64,000 bases of DNA from Polytrichum commune (Eukaryota; Streptophyta; Polytrichopsida; Polytrichales; Polytrichaceae). The number at the start of each line of letters is the position of its first letter. Position 1 is the first letter of the stretch. The notes under the pieces are model-generated. The model did no database searches and was not told where the DNA came from. It saw nothing but the letters and a program-made list of their open reading frames with translations. Where the stretch lies: assembly GCA_950295325.1 (NCBI GenBank), contig OX485806.1:17794001-17858000 (forward strand). Direction: 5' to 3'. Positions 8,278-40,985 of this stretch are shown here, piece by piece. Made by a program: the position numbers and the translations under genes.

Positions 8278-9590
8278 TGTTTCATAGCCATTTGCCTTAA
8301 TGTATGCGGTGTTATGTTTCTTAATCGGACCCCAGTAGTTTGATTGGTGTGTGGTCCGATGAGGATCAAATAACAAACGACTTAAAGACATGTGTGCAAA
8401 AGAGGTTGGACTACCTCTAGATTTTGTATTAACTATTCCACACTCCACAACAAACACAATTGGGAAAAGACCTACTCAGTTACAAAAAATATGTATCAAC
8501 AAACAAATACCTCCAATAACCATAACTAAACTAAACTAAGGGGGAGGCCCAATTTTTAATGCGAGATTTGTTGATGCTTCATTCAAGTAGGTCATTTGAC
8601 ATTGCAACATAAGCTTTGGTGTGTAAATCTAATCGGTAGGAGTTGCAGAACATGAAAAACAAACTAAATAAGATATCCGAGGCATGGTTGCCTTATTACA
8701 ATGAGCCCACCGGCCACCATGATAAGATGTAAACTATGCCTATGAGACAAGCGAACTCTTGTTCAAAATAGGGCCAATGAGCTCACATTCATGTCAGTCG
8801 AAACACAAACGTTGAAATTTATTTCATTTCTTACCTAAAGGTAGATGGGATGTAAAATACTTGGTTTCTTCATTGGACCCTTATATTTGATTGGCATGTG
8901 GTTTGGTAAGGGTCAAAGAGCAAACATCTTAAAGTCACATGTTTAAAAGAGATTGGACGTTGTCTTCAAATGACAACAACTACTCTACACTCATTAGTGA
9001 AACCAATCGGGAGGACCTATGTATCCTATCAAGAAAATCAAAGAAACACGCACTTTTGATATCCATAATTAAATCAAGGGAGGTCTGATTTTCAACCCGG
9101 TTTTTGCAGATGTTTCAATCTTAGATTTGCTAACGGGCCACACGAGTTTCATTGTGTAAGTCTAATCGGTAGCAGTCGGAACTCAATAGTACCCACATAC
9201 AATACCTTACTCTACACTCATTAGTGAACCCAATGGGGAGGACCTATGTATCCTATCAAGAAAATCCAACAAACGTGCACTACCGATATCCACAATTAAA
9301 TCAATGGAGGTCCGATTTTCAATCCGGCTTGTGCAAACATGTCAATCGTAGATTTGCTAACGGGCCACACGAGTTTCGTTGTGTAAATCTAATTGGTAGC
9401 AGTCAGAACTCAACAACACCCACATACAATACCTTGCTCTACACTCATTAGTGAGACTTATGTATGCTATCAAACGCGCACTTCCGATATCCACAATTAA
9501 ATCAAGGGAGGTCCGATTTCCAATCCGGTTTTTGCAAACGTTTCAATCGTAGATTTGCTAACGGGCCACACGAGTTTCGTTGTGTAAATC
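8278..9590 (+). repeat. Tandem array D (about 227-bp units), left part
   Basis: Units begin at CTCTACACTCATTAGTGA: 8983, 9210 and 9437, a constant spacing of 227 bp. Each contains TATGTATCCTATCAAG, GGAGGTCCGATTT, AGATTTGCTAACGGGCCACA and TGTGTAAATCTAATCGGTAG in order. A diverged related segment precedes it from about 8278, and another isolated copy lies at about 29990-30310. The array resumes at 11022 after the solo LTR. Confidence 0.75.
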
Positions 9591-11016
9591 TGTGAGGCCA
9601 AACCACCCACCCTTAAGCGTCCTAGTCCGGGTGAGGGAATGGGGATCACATTCATGTTTACATAACTCCCTCTTCCCAACTTCGTAAAAATCCATCACAT
9701 TTCCCATCAATCATTGCACACCAATCCATTCCACGATAATATTACAAGCGTTGACAAACGCTCTTCTCTATTATCACAATCATAACACACCCTATTGCGA
9801 CCCCCACATTACTCACATCCAAATTCAACCGCTAATCCTACCATCCAATACCTCGTGTTCTCCTAGCTTGCTAATGAACTAATTATCTAAATTAAAATTA
9901 GGTCATAACCTACTTAACTAACTAGCACCTAGTCTAGTGTAACACTACGGCTTCCCCCCCTTATATCACCTCGGTCCTTCAAACAATTGCCCTTCAAACC
10001 AACATTAAGCTCACATTACTGCCCGAATTCAACCCTGTAGCACCCGACAACTGCCCTTCAAACTAGCATTAAGCTCACATTGTTGTCCGAATTCGGCTCT
10101 GTAGCCTTGGCAGCTGCCCTTCAACCATCATTAAGCTCACACCCTTCAAACCAGCATTCAGCTCGCACTGCCACCAAAATTCAGCTCTGTAGCACTCGGT
10201 AGTTGCCCTTCAGACCAACATTAAGCTTGCACCCTTCAAACCAACATTAAGCTCACATCCTTCAAACCAACATTAAGCTCACATTGCTGTCCGAATTTGG
10301 TTCTGTAGCCTTGGCAGCTGCCCTTCAACCAGCATTCAGCTCGCACTGCCACCAGAATTCAACTCTGTAGCACTCGGCAACTGCCCTTCAAACCAACATT
10401 AAGCTCACATCCTTCAACGAACATTCAGCTCGCACTGCCACCATAATTCAGCTCTGTAGCACTCGGCAGCTGCCCTTCAAACCAACATTGTGCTTGCACC
10501 CTTCAAACCAACATTAAGCTCACATCCTTCAAACCAACATTAAGCTCACATTGCTGTCCGAATTCAGCTTGTGGCCTCGGCAGCTGCCCTTCAACCAACA
10601 TTCTCCTTCGGAAGTAAGGGAAGGGGGAGAAGAGAGGGAGAGAGAAGAGTGAGAGGAGAGGAGTGAAGGAAGGTGCACCCAAAGCCACACACCCCCTAAC
10701 CTTACCCAACTAAAATTAGATCAAGCCTATCCACTAAACCCTCCACCCCTAAAGCAACAAGGGAAGGCCTCAAATCAAACAATTAAACCCAAGGCCCTTC
10801 CCCTTTCTTAACACACACACTTAACTTAATTCAACCAACCCACTAATGCCGCTAAGCTTCTAATTAACCACACAAAATAGGCTTAAGGCCTAAAACATAA
10901 CTCCACACCAAGCCTCACTCTTTTTATACTTTTGATTGTTTCAATAACAACTTCAAATGCAATTCTAAGTAAATTCTAAACACAAAATAAATATGAGCAA
11001 CCATTTTGGGCTCATA
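9591..11016. mobile_element. Solo LTR (1426 bp) inserted in array D
   Basis: The insert starts TGTGAGGCC and ends GGGCTCATA. The expected LTR end TCACA would need one C-to-T change. It is flanked by the 5-bp duplication AAATC (9586-9590 and 11017-11021). Removing it rejoins array D exactly as TGTGTAAATC then TAATCGGTAG. No polymerase, primer-binding site or second LTR is present, so this is a recombined solo LTR. It holds its own short tandem array at about 9980-10600. Confidence 0.8.
9980..10600 (+). repeat. Tandem repeats inside the solo LTR
   Basis: Irregular units of roughly 25 and 60-70 bp are built from CCTTCAAACCAACATTAAGC, TGCTGTCCGAATTC and CTCTGTAGCACTCGGCAGCTG-like blocks. At least ten occurrences of the first block are visible. 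Such sub-repeats are common in plant LTR U3 regions. The frame at 10503-10709 is a by-product of it. Confidence 0.7.
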
Positions 11017-12130: not shown

Positions 12131-14305
12131 AGCGCTCTCTCTCTCTCTCCTTCCCCCTGCTTCCATCTCCTTCTCTATTTAGCGGCCTGTCTCCCGCCCC
12201 TCTGTTCTCCTCCAGGAACTCGGGCTTTCTGGTTTGTGGTTTCGATCGTTCTTCAAGCGAGTGCCGACGGTGGCTCTTCTTTACTTGTTTCCTTTTCTTC
12301 TTGCTTGCTCAGTTGTTTCTTGTGTGTGTAGAGAGAGAGAGAGAGATAGAGAGAGAGAACGGCGGGCTTCGATTCCCTTCCAGGGGGGCGGGTGTGCACA
12401 CGAGGTGATCGGGTTATATAATATTAGGGGAGCAGAGGGAGGCGATTTGGCGTTTAGTAGACATGCTGGAACTGTGCACCAGCCTCGGAACTGTGCGTCT
12501 TCTTCGTCTACTTCGTTTTGGCGTGGTGGTGGTGTGCACCCGTCATCAGCCGTGGTGTTTGCTTGTGTCGGACGCTGCAACGTAGCCTGCTGCGTTCGTC
12601 GCCGCATTGTTGGACCGAGGTGTGGTTTGCTTCAGTTTGGCCAGTGCGGTGTGTGTCGGAGGGGACGTGAAAGAAATACACGAGTGTAGAGAAGGTGTTT
12701 CTTGGCGAGCGGTTCGGCTTCCGGGCAAGGTTAGACGAGTTTCATAGGTAGGTTGGAGAAAAAGGAGGAGAAGAGGAAGTGAAGGAGGGAGTTTAGGTCG
12801 GGTGGTGTCGATTGGGGGAAGCTGGAGGGGGTGGGAGGAACCATGTCTTTGTGGTGACGCGTGCTGCTTAGGGTTTCGCCTCTTTGTGGTTTTGATTACT
12901 GAGTGTTGAAGTAGGCGGCAATGAGAGAGCAGTGTTGTTGCTGATTGTGGACCCGTTCAATATAAGTCGTCGTCGCACCTACCGTGGTGTCTTTGTTCTT
13001 AAGAGTGTGGTGGTTCCTGGGGTTTTTCGGGTATGCTATTGTCAGCTACCGAGGACGTAGTTGCTAGACAGTCGCTGTTCCTTTCGTGGTGTCTCTCTGT
13101 CCGTTAATTTCCTTCGTTCACCGGTTTGATTATAGATCCTTCTGCCGTGGTGGTGGAGGAAATTGATTGCCATAAATTCCAATTGTGATGATGAATTGAG
13201 TGTGAAGTCCGTAGAGGTCGTCTGTTGCATCCAGCAAGCTTGTGCGAACTATGTTCCGTTTACTTGTAGTGCACGCTATCTTTGTAGTGTTTTGAGGCAG
13301 GTTCTCTCTCTCTCTCTCTCTCTGTCCCTCTCTCTCTCTCTCTCTCCGTCTCTCTTATTTGGTCGTGTGAAACTCGGATAACAGCGTTTTTTCTCAATGC
13401 GAAAGCATTGTGACGTAGGGTTCTGGAGGTCGATGGTTAGTTGGTAACTCGCGCTGGCATACTAGGATGCATTGTGTTGCTCCGGTAAACTGACCATACT
13501 CTTCTCTCATAATGCGCATGAACACGAGCAAATGGTGTTAGTATCGGGAGTGGCTGTTATTTGTTAATGTGGACGGTTATTGGAGAGTACTGGATTGACT
13601 GTCGCTGAAATGAGACTGCGTCTTTTGTAGGGAAGAATTGACTGAGGCTGAGTCTCTCTATATAGCGATAGAAGAAAATCCATGCGTAGTAGTTGGTGGG
13701 GAATGACTCTAGGTCGGGTTATAGTATCTTAGTACAGGATAGACGTGGAGCATTGTTCAATTGATTTGAACCGAATTAGTGGAGGTCTAATTCATAATGA
13801 GGTTCTAATTAAGGTGGTCTTCGATTGATGGGGTAGATCAATCCTTTGGTCAAGTCAACTATACTAATGATGACGTCTAACATTGTCGGTCCCTTGTAGC
13901 CTTTTCGTAAGTAGAAGTGAGTTTTAGATTTGATATTCTGCAGCGTTACGTATTCTGCGTTAGAGGGTGAAACCATCGTTGTAGTTTCTCCGGCTCTTCC
14001 GTCTTACGGAATCCTCTGGTTTGTTCAGATTCTCTTGAATATTGCAGGCCCTTGCGTCGTTGGCTATTTTTGTCCACTTCACGTTCACTTAGAGAAAGGA
14101 GGTCCGGAGGGTTCATCACTTTTTATCGCACGATTCTCTCAAAGACTGTCCATATACTTGCATTCTAACCGCATTCCTTGATTTATTATTATTTTGTAAT
14201 TTTAACACATGTTCTACTATCTTTTCCAGGTGAAGTGGCGATCACATTTCTATTAGCGTGAACATTGTGGACATACGAAATTTGCTTTCAACAGTTTGAT
14301 TAGTC
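12131..14305 (+). other. AGO1 leader with 5'-UTR intron
   Basis: A CT-rich start region (12131-12160) and GA and TC microsatellites (12331-12357, 13303-13348) lie here. An intron ends with a strong acceptor, TATCTTTTCCAG, at 14229. The donor is not settled; GGTAGG at 12748 is one option. The last leader exon, 14230-14305, has no ATG. An in-frame TGA at 14297-14299 precedes the start codon, which supports 14306 as the true start. The 151-codon frame at 12234-12689 has low-complexity content and is not taken as a gene. Confidence 0.55.
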
Positions 14306-17300
14306 ATGCCGAGGAGACGGAAGACCCCGCGGGAGACTGAGGAAGCCAACAGGGCAGAAGCTTCTGCTTCTGGAGAGGCCCCAGTAGCTGTGCCAGGGCC
14401 GGCTCCGAGAGGTACACCACCTGCACCGGTTCCAGGACCACGCCCAGCAGCTCCTCCAGCGGCTCTACCGCAACAACCTCAAGTTCAACAACAACAGCAA
14501 CAAAACCCACAACCACAACTTCCAGCAGGGCCAGCTGCAACAGCACCTATGGCACGGCCACCTGTTCAGCATGTGGGACCTCCTCAACACTATGGTGGTC
14601 AAGGACATGACGAAGCTGGCAGCAGCGGCCCTGCTGGGCGGGGAAGGGGAATGGCAGTTCAAGGAAGAGGGAGGGGCAGGGGTCGTCAATATAATGCACC
14701 TAATTATCCTCAAGCCGGCTCTTTCACTGGAGAACCCTATCGCGCTCAAGGCCCTGATTTCCCTGAAATCCACCAGCAGCAGCAGCAGGGTTATGGAGCA
14801 CCCATGTACGGAAGGCCCTCAAGACCTACCCAGCCTACTATGATGACTCCCAATCGGCCTCCTCAAGCTGGTGGTCGGGGTCCTCCAGCAGTTCAATCAT
14901 ATAGCTCTGGTTCGGGTCCACCTGTACAGATTCCTGCTTCAGTGGCAGGGTATGCGCAGACCACAGTAGTCGAGCAGTTCGGAACCTTAAGTGTAGGACC
15001 TTCCGCGAGCATTGTTCCAGCAGCAGCTCCTATTCATGGTCATAGTCCTCCTCCTCAACCTCTCATACCAGTTTCCAGTAAGGCTCTACGATTTCCCTTG
15101 AGGCCTGGTATGGGACGGACAGGCACGAAATGTATGGTGAAGGCAAATCATTTCTTTGCGGAACTTCCCGACAAAGATTTACACCAATATGATGTATGTG
15201 CTCACTTTCTCTCTGTATTTGTTTGCCGTAGTGTGAGCATGGACTTGTCAGCAGCCTTTGCAACCAATTCTGTTCCATTCTTGCATTGAATTGCTAACTA
15301 CCTGGTCAGTATCCTCAGATATTGGCTTTGATGCACTAGAATATCGGCGAAAATACTTCAATAATTTATAATTGATTGCAACGATAGGACGGACCTGTCT
15401 AGTGCTATTTTTGTGGCTAAGTTTACAATGATATTGAAGGGTGATTGCTGCATTGATACTTTTCTCCTCGCCTTGGTCTTCCTAAGTTCTTGAAGAACAT
15501 GATTATTTGCAGGTTGCGATTGTTCCAGAAGTCACGTCTAGAGGTATCAACAGGGCGGTCATGGAACAGCTCGTGAAGGAGCACAGGGAATCTTCACTGG
15601 GTTCCAGGCTTCCTGCTTATGATGGTCGAAAGAGTCTGTATACAGCTGGGCCATTGCCATTTCAGAGCAGGGAGTTTCAAATTAGTCTCATGGACGAAGA
15701 TGATGGCAGCAATGCTCCAAGGTTTGGGGGTCTGATCCTTTGTTGTCGATTAGCTGAAGTGCCAAAATTAAACAGATCTCTTCTTTTATAAATCTACGAT
15801 CACTGGTTATGTGGTGCACATCAGTGGAATTTGCATCACCTGTTTATTTATGATTCATTGTGCACCTACATTTCATCAGTTGTTTCGACATCCAACAATT
15901 GTATACTGTAATCCTGCTTTCTTGTCTTACTGATTTTGACGTAGCTACGAATTTGTTCTGCTTTGGGTGTAGGAGAGAAAGACCCTTTAAGGTGGTTATC
16001 AAATTTGCTGCTCGAGCAGATCTGCATCATCTTGGGGAATTTCTGCGAGGCCGCCAAGCTGATGCCCCTCAAGAAGCTTTACAAGTCCTTGACATTGTGT
16101 TGAGAGAGCTACCTACACATCGGTAAGAACTACTACTCTGATGTATCAATAATTACTGTCTGTTTACATGCCTCCTTATTTCTGGATGCAAAGAAGCGTG
16201 AATTCAGGGTTTCCTTTTGATGTTCACATTTGCTGTTTCATTAATTTTGTGTTATACAGGTATTCACCTGTGGGCCGCTCTTTCTATTCTCCAAATCTCG
16301 GTACAAGACAGCCTCTAGGCGATGGACTGGAAAGCTGGCGAGGGTTCTATCAGAGTATTCGCCCAACTCAGATGGGCCTGTCCCTTAACATTGGTAACGG
16401 ATCCCTCTTTATCTACACTCTTGGGGCATAGAAGTTATGAGTTCAGTCGAACATCTGAACTTCGTGTGTGTCAAATGACGTTGCTTTCAATTCAGACAAA
16501 TCTACTGGAAGTTGGTTGTATATTTGATATGCATGTGTGAATCTTTTACATTCTTATAAAGGTTAACGGGAGTTCTTTGTTGGTCCTTGTCAGACATGTC
16601 TTCCACAGCATTTATCGAACCGAAAACTGTGATGGAGTTTATAAGGGACCTCCTGAATAAAGAGTTATCTCGTAGCTTGACCGATGCTGATCGAATCAAG
16701 GTGGGTTGCCTAAATATTACTCTACTGCGGTCAGCATGGCACATAATTTTTGAGATTTTTAACGATTACCTTGAGATGTTACATTCAATTAGATCTAAAA
16801 TGTATCTCTCAAGATGTCTGAAATAGATCTGACAAATCAGTTTGTATCACTGATTGTCACAGGGTTTGGAATGAGATTGTGAGATGTGTGAAATTGCTGT
16901 TGACAGATCAAGAAGGCATTGCGTGGAGTGAAGGTGGAGGTTACTCACCGGGGAAGTATGCGGCGCAAGTACCGCATATCTGGACTCACCAATCAGGCTA
17001 CTAATGAGCTTGAGTACGTTTTCTTAGTAATTCCTGTCCTAATTTTCTTGTGACGTTGCGTTTTGGAGTGGCCCAACTGGTACACCACGGGGTTTGGCAC
17101 TTGCTTTTACAAAGAAATGAGTCTTATGGAGCTAACTGTGCATTGTATTGCGCAGATTTCCTGTTGACGAGAATGGAACTTTGAAGTCTGTTACTGACTA
17201 TTTTCGGGAGACCTATGGTTACACTATTCGACATCCATCATTACCATGCCTTCAAGTAGGGAACTCACAGAGGCCCAATTATCTTCCAATGGAGGTCTGC

Positions 17301-20300
17301 AAAATAGTCGAGGGTCAACGCTATTCCAAGCGTTTGAATGAACGCCAAATTACGGCCTTACTCAAAGTGACATGTCAAAGACCTCGGGACCGTGAGAGGG
17401 ATATCCTGCAGGTAATTTTGTCTTTCTTGACATGGTCTAGATGATCATTGGAGGGTCCTATGATTAACCTATTATCTGTTCCTCATTTTATATCTTTATC
17501 CTTTTTTTTCAGCAATTTTTTGATCGTGAGAATCCACTTTTGTGTCTGAAGCCTGTCTTGTTTGGCTATTTGTATTACAGACAGTCAGCCACAATGCATA
17601 CCACCAAGATCCATATGCTCAAGAATTTGGAATTCGCATCAGCAATCAGCTTGCCCAAGTGGAGGCTCGAATCCTGCCAGCACCAAGGGTTTGTTTTCAT
17701 ACTCTGAAGATCTCATGCACAGCTAACCTGTGCAATCCAGATGTCTTATGCATATGATGCAGTTTGTACTTGATTGCTTACTGATAGGTGGCCATGCTTG
17801 TGTGCAGCTCAAGTATCATGATACAGGTAAGGAGAAGGACTGTCTCCCCCAAGTCGGCCAGTGGAATATGATGAATAAGGTAAGTTGTACAGGAAAATTG
17901 GAGTGCCTTATTTGAAATTTGTGACTTGGATCAAGTATCAGTCAGTTAGTAATATTGCTGTTTTGCCTGCTATCATAACAAGATTCTTTATGTTTTGCCG
18001 TGAACCTGCATTCCAGTATTAGTCTAAGGGGGCGTGTACACAACCTGGAAAACATTGAAGAGACATTATGGTTCTTTTTCTGGTGCAGAAAATGGTCAAT
18101 GGTGGAGTTGTCAACAACTGGGCATGCATTAATTTCTCTCGAAATGTACAAGAAAATATTGCTCGGAACTTCTGCTCTGAGCTGGCGCAGATGTGCCAGA
18201 CTTCTGGCATGGTATGCCTCTAAAACATCCTGAATGATTATGGACATATGGATGCGCAACCTGCTTATAAGAGTGTAAGCATTAGGAACAGCCATGTACT
18301 TATTCTGACAGTATTACTTATGCCGGACATCTGTACAGGTGTTCATCAAGGATCCAATTGTGCAAGTGCAAAGTTATCGCCCTGAGCACTCTGACAGAGC
18401 TTTGGTGCATCTTTGTGAGGAAGTCAAGCAGAAGACAAAGGGGAAAGGCTTGGATCTCCTAGTTGCAATTCTTCCTGATAACAATGGCTCCCTTTACGGT
18501 ATGTAATGTCTGACGCTTGGAATAGCGTTGACACTCAACAATGTCTGACGAGTTGATATTCCTTGGTCTGGCTGAACCTTTTATGGATGCATTGTGAGCT
18601 TAATTTTTATCAAATATTCTGTATGGGGTGGTCGTTTATATCTTTGGTATTCGGCCCATGTAGGGGATTTGAAGAAGCAATGTGAAACCGTTCTGGGCGT
18701 GGTGTCACAATGCTGCCTAACCAAGCATGTGTTCAAAATGAGCAAGCAATATCTGGCCAATGTGGCTCTAAAGATCAATGTTAAGGTATGCTCCCCAGGG
18801 ATGGGTCCTTCTTAGTTATGAAGCTTTGTGTGAAATCAGAATTACTGAAACATTTGATTTGCACTACAGAATTTGTTCTCTCATAGCTTGTTGTACTCTC
18901 CTTGTATTCCAGGTTGGGGGTCGCAACACTGTTCTGGTGGATGCATTGACACGGAGAATCCCCCTAGTGAGTGACATCCCCACCATTATTTTTGGTGCTG
19001 ATGTTACTCATCCACATCCAGGAGAAGACTCCAGCCCATCTATCGCTGCAGTAAGTTGATGCCTCAAGTTGAATTGCTTGTGAATTTACACTCATGCTCA
19101 TAGAAGCTTATTGTGAAAACAGGAAGCTAATACGTGTTGTAGTGCGTTGCACTGTTGTCATAGTATGTGGACATCTAAATTATCTGGTAATGTATTGTGT
19201 TAGGTGCTTTATGTTATATACAGACAAACCTGTTTGGCAGATGGATGTATTGTAGTTCTATATACCTTCGTGGCTTTAATTCAGATTGAGGGAATCCATT
19301 TGTCAATCATACTTTCATTCTTTTTGGTGGAACAGAAATCATGGGAGGTCCAGATAGTAGCCTTTTTACACTTGTTCCTATTGGTTTGAAGGTGTGGTAT
19401 TTTAAGGTGATGAATTGTGTTTCTGATTTTAGGTGGTGGCTTCTCAAGATTGGCCTGAGGTTACCAAGTATGCTGGTCTAGTATGTGCGCAAGCCCACCG
19501 CCAAGAGTTGATACAGGATCTTTTTAAAACAACTGTGGATCCTGTGCGTGGAGTACAGACTGGAGGAATGATCAAGTATGCGTTGCAGTAGTTTATATCC
19601 TCGTCCTATGTTTTAAACTGTTGATTTTAATGGCTGGTGCTGTGTGCTTGAGGCTGATCATTGGATATTTATGTGATTCAGAGAGTTGCTGATCTCTTTC
19701 TGGCGAGCTACAGGACAAAAGCCTCTGCGCATCATCTTCTACAGGTTCGACCTTACATTGTTTTTGGTAGCCCCATAAACTTGCGTAGATTCTGTCTAAG
19801 TTGTCATACGTCATACTACAGGCTTTGAAGTTCAAGTTGTGTCAACCTCCAAGCATGGTTCAAACATTTTGTTTGTTTCTGCAGGGATGGAGTTAGTGAA
19901 GGGCAATTTTATCAAGTGCTTCTGTATGAGCTGGATGCCATCCGGAAGGCATGTGCCTCACTAGAGCCAGACTATCAACCGCCTGTAACATTTGTGGTGG
20001 TCCAGAAAAGGCATCACACTCGCCTCTTTGCCAGCAATCACAATGATAACCGTACCACAGACCGCAGTGGCAATATCCTCCCAGGTACAGTGTTCACCAA
20101 TCAACAGGATTTTTACTTCGAATCAATTATGTCTGTAAAGTATCTTGTCTTTATCAAGGAAGAAACACAGGAACTTTCATTGATTATGTGTGGCCCTGTG
20201 AATATGTTGTATCCCTGTGATCTACTGACCTGGGTCTTTCTCTTGTGCCTCTAGGTACGGTTGTGGACTCAAAAATCTGTCATCCGACAGAGTTTGACTT

Positions 20301-35140: not shown

Positions 35141-38100
35141 TCAGTGACAGGCTCCCATTTGGCCCTCATTGACCACTACACCAAACTTCTCATCGTTTTC
35201 ATTCAAGTTGCACGGAGGTAAGGACTGGGCACTGACAGTTGAACTTCCCTTCCTCATCTCCTGAAGGGTCCGCAGGGCAGCAACTGTGCTCTTGAATATA
35301 CCTCCCGCAGCTTCACCTACTCTAAACAAAAGCTCAACATGAGGAAAGGGCCTTCCAGAAGAAGAAACAAAAGCTGATGAAAACAGATAAAGGAGTGTAC
35401 ATCCAGAAGGACAACAACTAGGCCCCAAGAAGGATAGAATTAACTGAATTTGAAAAATAAGAGAAAACTAAGAACTGGTTGGCAGGTGTAGTAATAACCT
35501 GTTGGATACAGTAGCCCTTGGGCTTCTCTTGAGGCATCTTCTTCTCCTTCAACCGGTTGTACATCAATGCTTTCTACTAGAGGAGGTGGTGGGAACATGG
35601 ACAAAAGGTTCTCACAGTCCTGCACAAGCTTTGAAAGAAGCTCCGTGGCAAAAAATGGCTGCAAAAGGACTCGTCTAATAAATGGGAGACGCAGCACAGC
35701 TCCTGTGCGCTTATCATGCTTCTTCAAAATTTTCACAAGCCCTGGAGGAAAAAAAATAATTTTGAGTCGCTGCTCGTTGCAAAAGCCCTACTAGATTCAT
35801 GATTTCTTGTAGATTTGAAGTGCGTACTTGTTAAACTGCTGAACCAGAAACCACTACCTCCATCATCCAAAGCCATACAAAATTTATGGCATCAATTCCA
35901 ACGTTCTAACACCCAAATAAGCTAGACTCTGGCCTTCAGAATCCTCACCCTCTGATTGCTCATAAACAATAAGTGACTACAATAGGTACAATTGAAAGCT
36001 GGAAGTAATAACATGAAACAAACCTGTGTAATTTAGGGCACTGTAGCTCTCCATGAGTATAACCTCCCCATGAAATGTGACAAGACCAGTTCGGATGGTG
36101 AGGAGTTCATCATTCCAATCCCTCTGATAGATGTGGGCACCATTTTGTTGAGTCACCCTCTCCAGTCTCTGCTTCAGCTCCTGCAAGCCATCATGGAAAA
36201 TCTTAGCAACTTCCCTAAAGTTCTTCAATACAGTATTTGTATCAAGATAGTAAGCCTCCTCTGCTCTGACCCATCATAAACTGTGGGGTCGACACTCTTC
36301 CATTCTGATTTTAGCAACTTTCGCAAGTACATATTTACATAGTTTCAATAGGAAGGATCCCTTGACACTATTGAAGCTTGTCCATCTAACGCTTGTTAAC
36401 TTGCACATTCCAGAGAATTTCTACAAGACTTGAAGGAAAGCACATAATGTGCAGCTATTCATCGTCCATTTACCATTGACTATATTGGACTTTGTCCATC
36501 TAACGCTTGTTAACTTACACATTCGTGAGAATTTCTATTAAGAATTAAAGGAATGCACGTAATATGGGGAGCTCTTCCTCATACATTTACCAAGTCACGA
36601 CCTACAGGTGAAAAATTACAACCCAGTTTGGTTCTCCCACCAAGGCCGTAAATTCAACACTGGTAATAAGACCACTCCAAGACTACATGATTGAGAGGAT
36701 CGCATGGAACCTCACACTAGTCCACACCAAAGCTAAAAAAACTTCAAGAATTTGTTTGGTGAAGTAAACATGGAAACATGAGTTGAACCTGCTTACAAGT
36801 GTCCTTCTGCTTCAAGAGCAGTGAGTATAAAGTCAACAAATGAGATCTCCTGTCTACACACTGTAGAATCTAGAGAGCTGAGGTCGTAAGAACAGAATTT
36901 GATCAGAAATGAAACACGGTCTGCTATTGCAAGAATGCTCAGAAAACTGAAGAATATCTACTGAACTTCCTTGAAGAGTTTCATGTGCATATAGGTACCA
37001 CCCATGATCAAGGGGGTTGCAGGGGACACGACCAGGACAACCAATGATATGCAGGATGGACCTAATGGCGTCCATCCTGCAATACTTTACACATACAAGG
37101 GGTGGTAGCTGCTAAAGATTGGTCACAATGCAGGGCAAGTGTCGCAGGACTGGGCTTCTGGGCAAGTGTCGCTGCTGGGATAGTGCTAGGCTAAGCTTAG
37201 CATGCAAGCCTCGTACTTTTCTTCTAAATATCTACACCAAATGCTGTCCAAGGCACAGGGCCTCAAGAACACAATAAATTTCATTATGTCGATAATACAC
37301 TAGTGAATTATGACTACATTGTGGAGCACGTATATGGACAAAGACCTCCTCATGCGAGTATGTGGCGGATATTCTGAAGGTACTGTATAGGTAAGACTTG
37401 ATGTCAAGGCGATTTTCTAATAGTCTCTAAAGTCGAGCATTCACAAGCTAACCGTTTCGATATGTACATGTCCAGAGCCATGAATACTAAAAGAACGAGA
37501 GCTTTCCGAGTCCCCGACAGACCTACATTCTTCGACAATAAACATGAAAATTATACCCTCTCCCCTTACATGGATAATTCTGCTACCTGAGGTTTAGAAA
37601 CCGGCAGAATTTCACACCACGCAGCAAACCTGTAATTGGAACCATGCATGCACACCTGTAGGCGTATAACATCGTCCTCTTCTTTACGACATAGACGAAT
37701 GACATAGACCGACATTCTTCGATGGCAAACATAAACTCCTTACCCTGCCCCCTACATGAAAAAAATCTTCTACCTGAGGTTTTGGAGACCGGTATGGGAC
37801 CTTCACACCGCGCAGCTAAGCTGAAATTGGAGCCATGCATGCGTACCTGTAGGTGTATAACATAGTCCTCATCTTTTTATGACACAGGCGTATGACATAG
37901 ACCTACATTATTCGACGCCAAACATGAACTCTTTATCATCCCCCTACATGGACAAGAAAATCCGCTACCTAAGGTTTCAAGACCAGCCAAATTTTCACAT
38001 CACGCAAGGGGCGTGCCTGCAATAGAAACCATGCATGCGTATGGCATAGTCCACTTCGTTTCCAAGATAGGCCTATGACATAGACCTACATTCTTCGACA

Positions 38101-39108
38101 GCAAACATGAGCTATTTATCGTCCCCCCTACATAGAATTAGCTGCTACCTGAGACCGGTAGAATTCCACACCGTGCGACGAACAAACCTGTAGTCGGAAC
38201 CATGCATGATTACCTGTAGGCGTATGACATAGACCTACATTCTTCGACGACAAACATGAACTCTGTCTCCTCCCTCAACACGGACAAAAACGTGCTACCT
38301 GAGGTTTTGAGACCGGTAAAATCTCCACACCGTGCAACGACGAACAAAACCTGTAATGGTAACCATCCATCCCCAAAGCATGCGAGATGGATTGACTTAC
38401 CTGTAGGCGTATGACATAGTCCTCTTCTTTCTCCGTGAAGAAGCTGTTGAATTTCTCCAGCTCCACATTCAACAGGCGCAGAAACTCCTCCTCCTCGCTG
38501 GTCAGCTCCTTCTCCTCCCCGACACGCTGCGGGGCACGTCCCCGGGCGGCCAGAATCTCTCTCTCGATAGGGGCCGCCGCGGCCGCCACAATCCCCTCAT
38601 CCACCACACTCGCAACACCTTTTCTCTTCGTCCCTGCCACCACAGCCGCAACCAACGCACCCTCGTCATCCTCCTCTTCCGCCACTTCCTTTTCCTCCTC
38701 TCCTTTCCCTCTTTCCGCCACCGCAGCAGCATCCGCACACCTCACCACAACAAACGCCTCGCCATCGCTCCCTTTGGCTTTCTTCACCGCAGGAGGCGCC
38801 TCGTCTTCCTCCGCTTTAACATCCGGCCACCGCACCTTCACATCTCGCGTTGTCGTCACCTCCACCGAAGGCCTCTCTTCTTCCTCCTCCTGCTCCTCCT
38901 CAACCTCAGCCCCCTCCCTCGCAATTCTTGCTTCCGCTGCTCCATTGACGGCCACAACGACGTCAGGCTCAAAAGCTGCGTCAGGCAAGGAGTTGCTCGC
39001 TAAGAACGACTTGATTCTCTTCTTGAGCTGCTTGTAGCTTAGGAACTTGTCCCTGTACTCGGGGGGCAGCTCCTCCAGCAACAGCTGCAGGAGCTTTCCA
39101 TACTTCAT
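35141..39108 (-). CDS. SPX-domain protein (inositol-pyrophosphate/phosphate sensor)
   Basis: Stand-alone SPX proteins bind inositol pyrophosphates and, when phosphate is plentiful, hold PHR transcription factors inactive. Exons on the - strand: 39108-38401, 36180-36024, 35741-35499, 35316-35141; all GT-AG with matching phases, 427 residues. The start MKYGKLLQ fits the usual SPX N-terminus MKFGK. Helix 2 carries Y25 and K29 in LSYKQLKKR. The second half reads [38 protein letters not shown] and then [12 protein letters not shown], whose lysines (K292, K295, K296, K299) form the rest of the ligand surface. The C-terminus has [20 protein letters not shown], typical of the SPX1-4 class. It is longer than its relatives (about 250-320) because residues about 36-185 form an acidic, Ala-rich insertion with KKAK and KRK basic patches. 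No EXS, MFS or RING domain follows. Confidence 0.93.
37590..38400 (-). repeat. Intron 1 tandem array copied from the exon 1/intron 1 junction of SPX
   Basis: Five units of about 175-190 bp. The + strand landmark ACCTGTAGGCGTAT (exon end plus donor) lies at 37654, 37845, about 38035 (reduced), 38212 and 38399; the last is the real junction. Other shared blocks are GAACCATGCATGC, CTACCTGAGGTTT, GACATAGACCTACATTCTTCG and AAACATGAACTC. The unit at 37654 copies about ten codons of exon 1 with two differences and retains the donor GT. Confidence 0.85.
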
Positions 39109-40179: not shown

Positions 40180-40985
40180 CCGGCCGCTAGTTACAAATGA
40201 ACCGGTCGAGTTCGAGATGTAACCGGTGGAGTTCAAGACATAACTGGTCGAAGGTCGAGACACAACCGGTGGAGTTCGAGACGTAACCAGTCGAAGGTCA
40301 AGACTTCACGAAACACTTGCCCATCGTTTTAGAGGAATCTAGAGAATATGCCTCGAATCAATGAAGGAGAACCCGAAAGATGTCGATATGTGATGAACCA
40401 GTTGAGTTCAAGACATAATCGGTCAAAGGTCAAGGCTTCACGAAAAAACTTTGCCCGTCAATTTAAAGGAACCTAGAGGATATGCCTCGAATTAATGAAG
40501 AAAACCCCGAAAGATGTCGATATGTGATGAACCGGTTGAGTTCGAGACATAATCGGTCAAAGGTCAAGGCTTCACGAAAAAACTTTGCCCGTCAATTTAA
40601 AGGAATCTAGAGGATATGCCTCGAATTAATGAAGAAAACCCCGAAAGATGTCGATATGTGATGAACCGGTTGAGTTACAAGTGAACCGCTTGAGTTTGAG
40701 ACATAATCAGTCAAAGGTCAAGACTTCTCGAAACCTTGCCCATCGTTTTAGAGGAATCTAGAGAATATGCCTCGAATTAATGAAGAACACCCCGAAAGAT
40801 GTCGACGTGTATTGAACCGATTGAGTTTAATGCATAGCCGGTCAAAGTTCAAGACTTCACGAAAAACCTTGCATGTCATTTTGGAGGAATCTAGAGAACA
40901 TGCCTTTAATTAATAAAGAAAAACCGAAAGACGTTGACATGTAGCCAGTTGGACTTGGAAACACCAAGGATTTTGACCGACTATG
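40180..40985 (+). repeat. Tandem array of repeat R with P1BS-type motifs
   Basis: Five to six units, period about 134-151 bp, with the blocks GAACCGGTTGAGTTCGAGAC, GGTCAAGGCTTCACG, TTGCCC, ATGCCTCGAATTAATGAAG and CCGAAAGATGTCGA. GNATATNC occurs once per unit at 40344, 40478, 40612 and 40763; the last unit has lost it (GAACATGC). Single copies lie at 22.3, 30.8 and 55.1 kb. The array is 1.1-1.9 kb upstream of the SPX start codon. Confidence 0.75.

Follow-up and report, generated by a model that had tools for sequence, protein, structure and literature searches.

The first intron of an SPX gene on the minus strand of Polytrichum commune opens with an array of five tandem units, and we propose that it very probably arose by a tandem duplication spanning the boundary between exon 1 and intron 1, which grew to five units in a burst and then decayed neutrally, leaving the copied splice donors as fossils that are ignored in splicing. 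The array was located within the window, i.e., the 64-kb stretch of DNA that was analysed, to which all positions refer. An earlier note on this DNA had placed it at 37590-38450 with units of about 175-190 bp: the array and its tandem units are real, but self-BLASTN moves the limits to 37519 and 38430, and the spacing of the five units ranges over 149-193 bp.

The gene model comprises exons 1, 2 and 3 (Table 1), with intron 1 (38400-36181) set by the acceptor of exon 2. Exon 1 alone matches the Pfam SPX domain at 7.4e-14, and the spliced model matches that domain (PF03105) at 1.6e-26 and PDB 7e40, SPX domain-containing protein 1, which we take to be the rice protein, at 1.6e-51. A single alignment block to 7e40 (residues 188-341) spans the exon 1/2 junction, with the last residues of exon 1 aligning with its EKEEEYIIR segment. 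On this homology, the copy that appears to have founded the array is the real splice boundary of the SPX gene, and the end of exon 1 is conserved coding sequence, which bears out the earlier proposal that the array was seeded across this boundary. All four further copies sit inside intron 1 of the model. As a separate observation, the two 7e40-matching parts of exon 1 (residues 1-35 and 188 onward) are held apart by a net insert of ~140 residues in which E, A and V are visibly abundant.

The extent of the array was established by comparing 37450-38520 with the whole window by self-BLASTN (cut-off 1e-3), which gave off-diagonal E-values from 6e-78. The array takes up the first 0.88 kb of intron 1 together with the final 30 nt of exon 1, and a repeat search recovered a 93-nt core in five copies, spaced by 187, 193, 183 and 149 nt; TRF called just 1.9 copies of it (37611-37977, period 191, 82% matches). 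The copies are arranged head to tail and hold both exon-end and intron-start sequence, as seen in the unit alignment, the junctions and self-BLASTN, with the unit 5/unit 4 junction falling within 38243-38212. As had been claimed, self-BLASTN and the junctions agree that only the unit at 38399 runs on into the real exon. Shortly past the real donor, ~24 nt (38394-38371) are found in unit 5 alone, and may be either a private insertion or the remainder of a deletion common to the other four units. Self-BLASTN detected no copies of the array elsewhere in the 64 kb, and its derivation from a repeat dispersed within the window was rejected.

Table 1. Features of the SPX gene and its intron 1 array (positions in the window).
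Feature	Position	Strand	Remarks
Entire tandem array, with the final 30 nt of exon 1 counted in	37519..38430	-	self-BLASTN
Unit 5, putative founder, with the real end of exon 1 at its gene-proximal edge	38231..38430	-	self-BLASTN, unit alignment
Unit 4	38082..38230	-	exon copy YVIRLQ; donor CAG/GTAATC, G at 38213
Unit 3	37899..38081	-	exon copy 38060-38029; final exon bases and donor gone
Unit 2	37706..37898	-	exon copy 37876-37845; donor CAG/GTACGC, G at 37846
Unit 1, far end	37519..37705	-	exon copy 37685-37654; donor CAG/GTGTGC, G at 37655
Real donor CAG/GTAAGT	38395..38403	-	9/9 consensus; U1 pairing -11.6 kcal/mol
First in-frame stop on extending exon 1 into the intron	38275..38277	-	precedes all three copied donors
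Unit-borne donor-like CAG/GTAGCA, not exon-derived	38293..38301	-	+102 nt, 34 codons
Extra exon-derived 13-mer, unit 4/3 junction	38071..38083	-	12/13
Extra exon-derived 13-mer, unit 3/2 junction	37888..37900	-	13/13
Extra exon-derived 13-mer, unit 2/1 junction	37695..37707	-	11/13
Coding exon 1, SPX gene	38401..39108	-	236 codons; phase 0 end ...EEDYVIRLQ
Exon 2 (ELKQRLER...NYTG)	36024..36180	-	acceptor TTGCAG; 7e40 block crosses exon 1/2 junction
Exon 3	35499..35741	-	downstream donor inferred by eye

The exon-derived part of each unit can be followed with a 32-nt query in which the GT follows the final 30 nt of exon 1, and which occurs in five copies starting at 37654, 37845, 38029, 38212 and 38399. 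The intronic copies match it at 30/32 (37685-37654), 29/32 (37876-37845), 25/32 (38060-38029) and 26/32 (38243-38212), the last of these scoring lower as its upstream stretch is the end of the neighbouring unit; from ATGTCATACGCCTACAG/GTAA onward it is identical to the real sequence. Across 200 dinucleotide shuffles the best score per shuffle averaged 19.9 and reached a maximum of 22 of 32, and chance similarity was therefore rejected against the 25-30/32 seen; the units do share the exon-derived segment, which was the self-alignment check proposed at the outset. The accompanying description of the other units as donor-bearing holds for three of the four, which keep CAG/GT; the copy at 38060-38029 has no GT. 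Not mentioned in the earlier note is another exon fragment, the 13-mer CTATGTCATACGC, which recurs in three of the four junctions (at 38083, 37900 and 37707). Read from the real exon to unit 1, the scores against CTATGTCATACGC are 13, 13, 12, 12, 13, 11, 11 and 11 of 13, such that the intron holds seven exon-derived pieces, each at 11-13/13, and outside the array no site in the window exceeds 10/13 on either strand. An exon-end pattern of 20 nt was matched exactly nowhere in viral contigs and once in genome contigs, in a Prevotellaceae MAG, with ~2 chance matches expected in 257 Gb on both strands.

At the junctions, exon and intron sequence are combined as in a mosaic. The array ends as ...GAATGTAGGTCT, with unit 1 stopping at AGGTCT ahead of non-repeated intron; the exon reads GAGGACTATGTC, and the unit 5/unit 4 junction reads GTAGGTCTATGTC. 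Briefly, we envisage the following course of events. Of the two breakpoints, one would have lain in exon 1, ~17-30 nt from its end, and the second in intron 1, at a distance of ~190 nt; every copy would thereby have come to carry the exon's final codons and the donor. The duplication may have been joined at the short imperfect homology AGGWCT, represented by AGGTCT in the intron and AGGACT in the exon. Later template switching or slippage on CTATGTCATACGC could have produced the extra exon fragments at three of the four junctions, with the simple 5/4 junction being either the original one or the product of a deletion between two 13-mers. Five units would have been reached in a short burst, to be followed by unit-by-unit decay, as a star-like tree of the units suggests. 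We further propose that the upstream donor was kept by selection because it is the sole exon-derived donor that preserves the reading frame; the downstream copies would be splice-site fossils, probably ignored and removed with intron 1.

The tree in question was built from the intron parts of the units, which are 70-80% identical in 10/10 unit pairs; its internal branches make up 6.7% of its length, with bootstraps of 60% and 67% (200 replicates). Near-identical neighbouring units, the mark of recent homogenisation, were not found at this identity and with this star-like form. We read this pattern as a burst of copying after which the units decayed independently, and see no trace of homogenisation in recent times. 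The star-like tree and the divergence likewise argue against present copy-number variation: the earlier suggestion of copy-number change at this coding boundary, as a process of the present, is unsupported, the intron parts having diverged by 20-30% and the tree holding no recently added unit.

The array might instead serve as a set of decoys, a role that the earlier note had raised for its donors: they would capture U1 or, by splicing from downstream donors, yield stop-containing SPX transcripts and thereby lower or tune SPX output. We regard this role as unlikely and do not favour it. To compare donors, we scanned all 180 GTs in 38410-36181 for pairing energy with the sequence that we take to be the U1 5' end. 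GTs at or below -6.5 kcal/mol number 9/85 in the array against 1/94 in the remainder of intron 1, and average 1.6 per kb per strand in the window. The array is donor-rich, yet six of these nine strong sites are not exon-derived (-9.4 kcal/mol at 37743; -8.0 at 37773; -7.7 at 37586, 38148 and 38298; -7.0 at 38187). The copied donors at 38213, 37846 and 37655 pair at -8.1, -7.1 and -6.7 kcal/mol with 7, 7 and 6 of 9 consensus positions, and the fourth is lost. All three would bring the stop at 38277-38275 into the transcript, as a poison-splicing role would have it, but the real donor, with its full consensus, pairs far better with U1 and is the strongest among the 180 GTs. Further, GC content drops between exon 1 (0.58) and the array (0.45), which puts the real donor at the exon-to-intron change in composition; it is at such changes that donors in plants are preferentially selected.

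A decoy role would also lead one to expect constraint on the copies. The finding that points this way, and away from neutral decay, is that the exon copies are slightly better preserved than the intron parts, with 8 differences over 101 sites where the terminal branches in the tree of the intron parts would predict 14.7 (Poisson P=0.044, uncorrected). These 101 sites, chosen by us, omit 13 upstream positions of unit 4 that are the end of the neighbouring unit, the gapped positions of unit 3 and differences beyond the 30 exon bases, and one change common to units 1 and 2 is entered twice; by unit, the differences are 2/30, 3/30, 3/24 and 0/17 for units 1 to 4. The exon copy of unit 1 differs less from the real exon than the intron part of unit 1 does from that of unit 5 (Fisher P=0.017), as is in part to be expected given the constraint on the real exon; the comparison of units 1 and 2, both intronic, gives P=0.09. 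The survival of CAGGT cores in three of the four copies is consistent with neutrality (P(>=3)=0.26 under neutral decay). On these counts, the case for selection on the copies is not a good one, though they may be under weak selection.

An alternative in-frame isoform, in which the donor at 38298 (CAG/GTAGCA) adds 34 codons to exon 1 within the SPX domain, appears improbable. Among the five donors covered by the frame test (38213, 37846, 37655, 38298 and 37743), four lie past the stop at 38277-38275, and 38298 is the only one that is open and in frame, the added 102 nt being free of stops up to that point. Its U1 pairing at -7.7 kcal/mol also speaks for it, but it has just 6/9 consensus positions and is much weaker than the real donor, the insert would land in a conserved part of the SPX domain, and the identical 9-mer recurs at 37586 and 38148, both past the stop. 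A combination of these two ideas, which we hold to be no more probable than the isoform, would make the array a splicing rheostat: the gene's own exon-edge copies, together with the other donor-like sites in the units, would bind U1 and occasionally divert splicing, giving SPX transcripts that contain a stop or are longer by 34 codons. Were this so, the number of units would set the frequency of diversion, and a change in copy number would tune a phosphate sensor.

Two other readings bear on the reality and polarity of the array. An assembly artefact, with the repeat collapsed or falsely expanded, is very improbable because false expansion of one locus would not give private indels and a divergence of 20-30% between intron parts. 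The direction of copying cannot be read from sequence identity alone, but recruitment of the exon end from an older intronic satellite is the least credible reading of all and was rejected: a conserved SPX segment is encoded at the exon end, for which reason we take the direction to be from exon to intron, and unit 5 is the only one to run on into the exon.

We return, then, to a boundary-spanning duplication followed by neutral decay, and to its setting in the window. TRF found three other arrays with units >60 bp in the 64 kb (8981-9454, 9983-10603 and 40200-40943); therefore, local tandem duplication is not rare in this window. The description of the origin of the SPX array as unusual stands for its place, a splice boundary, but the process looks ordinary here. 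Of the arrays at 9983-10603 and 8981-9454, one is nested, with periods of 26, 62-64, 89, 115-116 and 267 bp, and one has a period of 227 bp. The SPX start codon is preceded, at ~1.1 kb, by the array at 40200-40943, whose periods are 21, 43 and 133-151 bp and which is possibly in the SPX promoter. The window also holds plus-strand open reading frames with PAZ (17136-17441) and Piwi (19829-20251) domains and a weak ArgoN match below Pfam's cut-off (14300-15286), and going by these domains 14300-20251 is probably an Argonaute gene; the presence of both this gene and the SPX gene would suit a plant nuclear genome. Besides the SPX gene, Pfam was searched with ten open reading frames out of 32 of at least 100 residues, and 3/10 matched at E <= 0.01.

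In unit number and period, the features compared, the array resembles the ordinary minisatellite-like arrays of the window, which have few imperfect units with periods from tens to ~270 bp; what would set it apart is that coding sequence and a splice donor form part of it. Among the open-access matches listed, the titles and abstract openings offered no multi-copy donor-side array, which is weak evidence that none has been described, and the passages on splice-site-creating variants in PMC11718197 provide no precedent for the SPX array. Repeats can also mislead read alignment, false junctions between them being reported as aligner errors in the EASTR paper (PMC10632439). Nearer parallels come from two sources. 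In the potato RdRp gene, a tandem genomic duplication across the boundary of the first intron and second exon generated a new spliced intron with RNA-seq support (PMC4974935). As in the SPX gene, a tandem duplication in a plant gene crosses an intron/exon boundary and copies splice signals; the potato case concerns the acceptor side and two copies, in contrast to the donor side and four intronic copies, and its new intron is spliced, whereas the SPX array is known from its sequence alone (PMC4974935). The general model of intron gain via duplication of AGGT segments, reviewed elsewhere (PMC3443670), likewise has an AG/GT site within a gene multiplied by tandem duplication; unlike in that model, the SPX copies lie inside an existing intron and are known only as DNA (PMC3443670). 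The SPX array would then be the donor-side, multi-copy counterpart of known boundary-crossing duplications. If the copied donors were used, it would be a rare case of repeat-number control on a phosphate-signalling gene. Either way, it offers a natural example of a donor copied several times, of which the frame-keeping one retains the full consensus and the others are weaker or lost, and a modest test case from nature, both for the choice that the spliceosome makes when donors are repeated and for the growth of introns from the 5' end.
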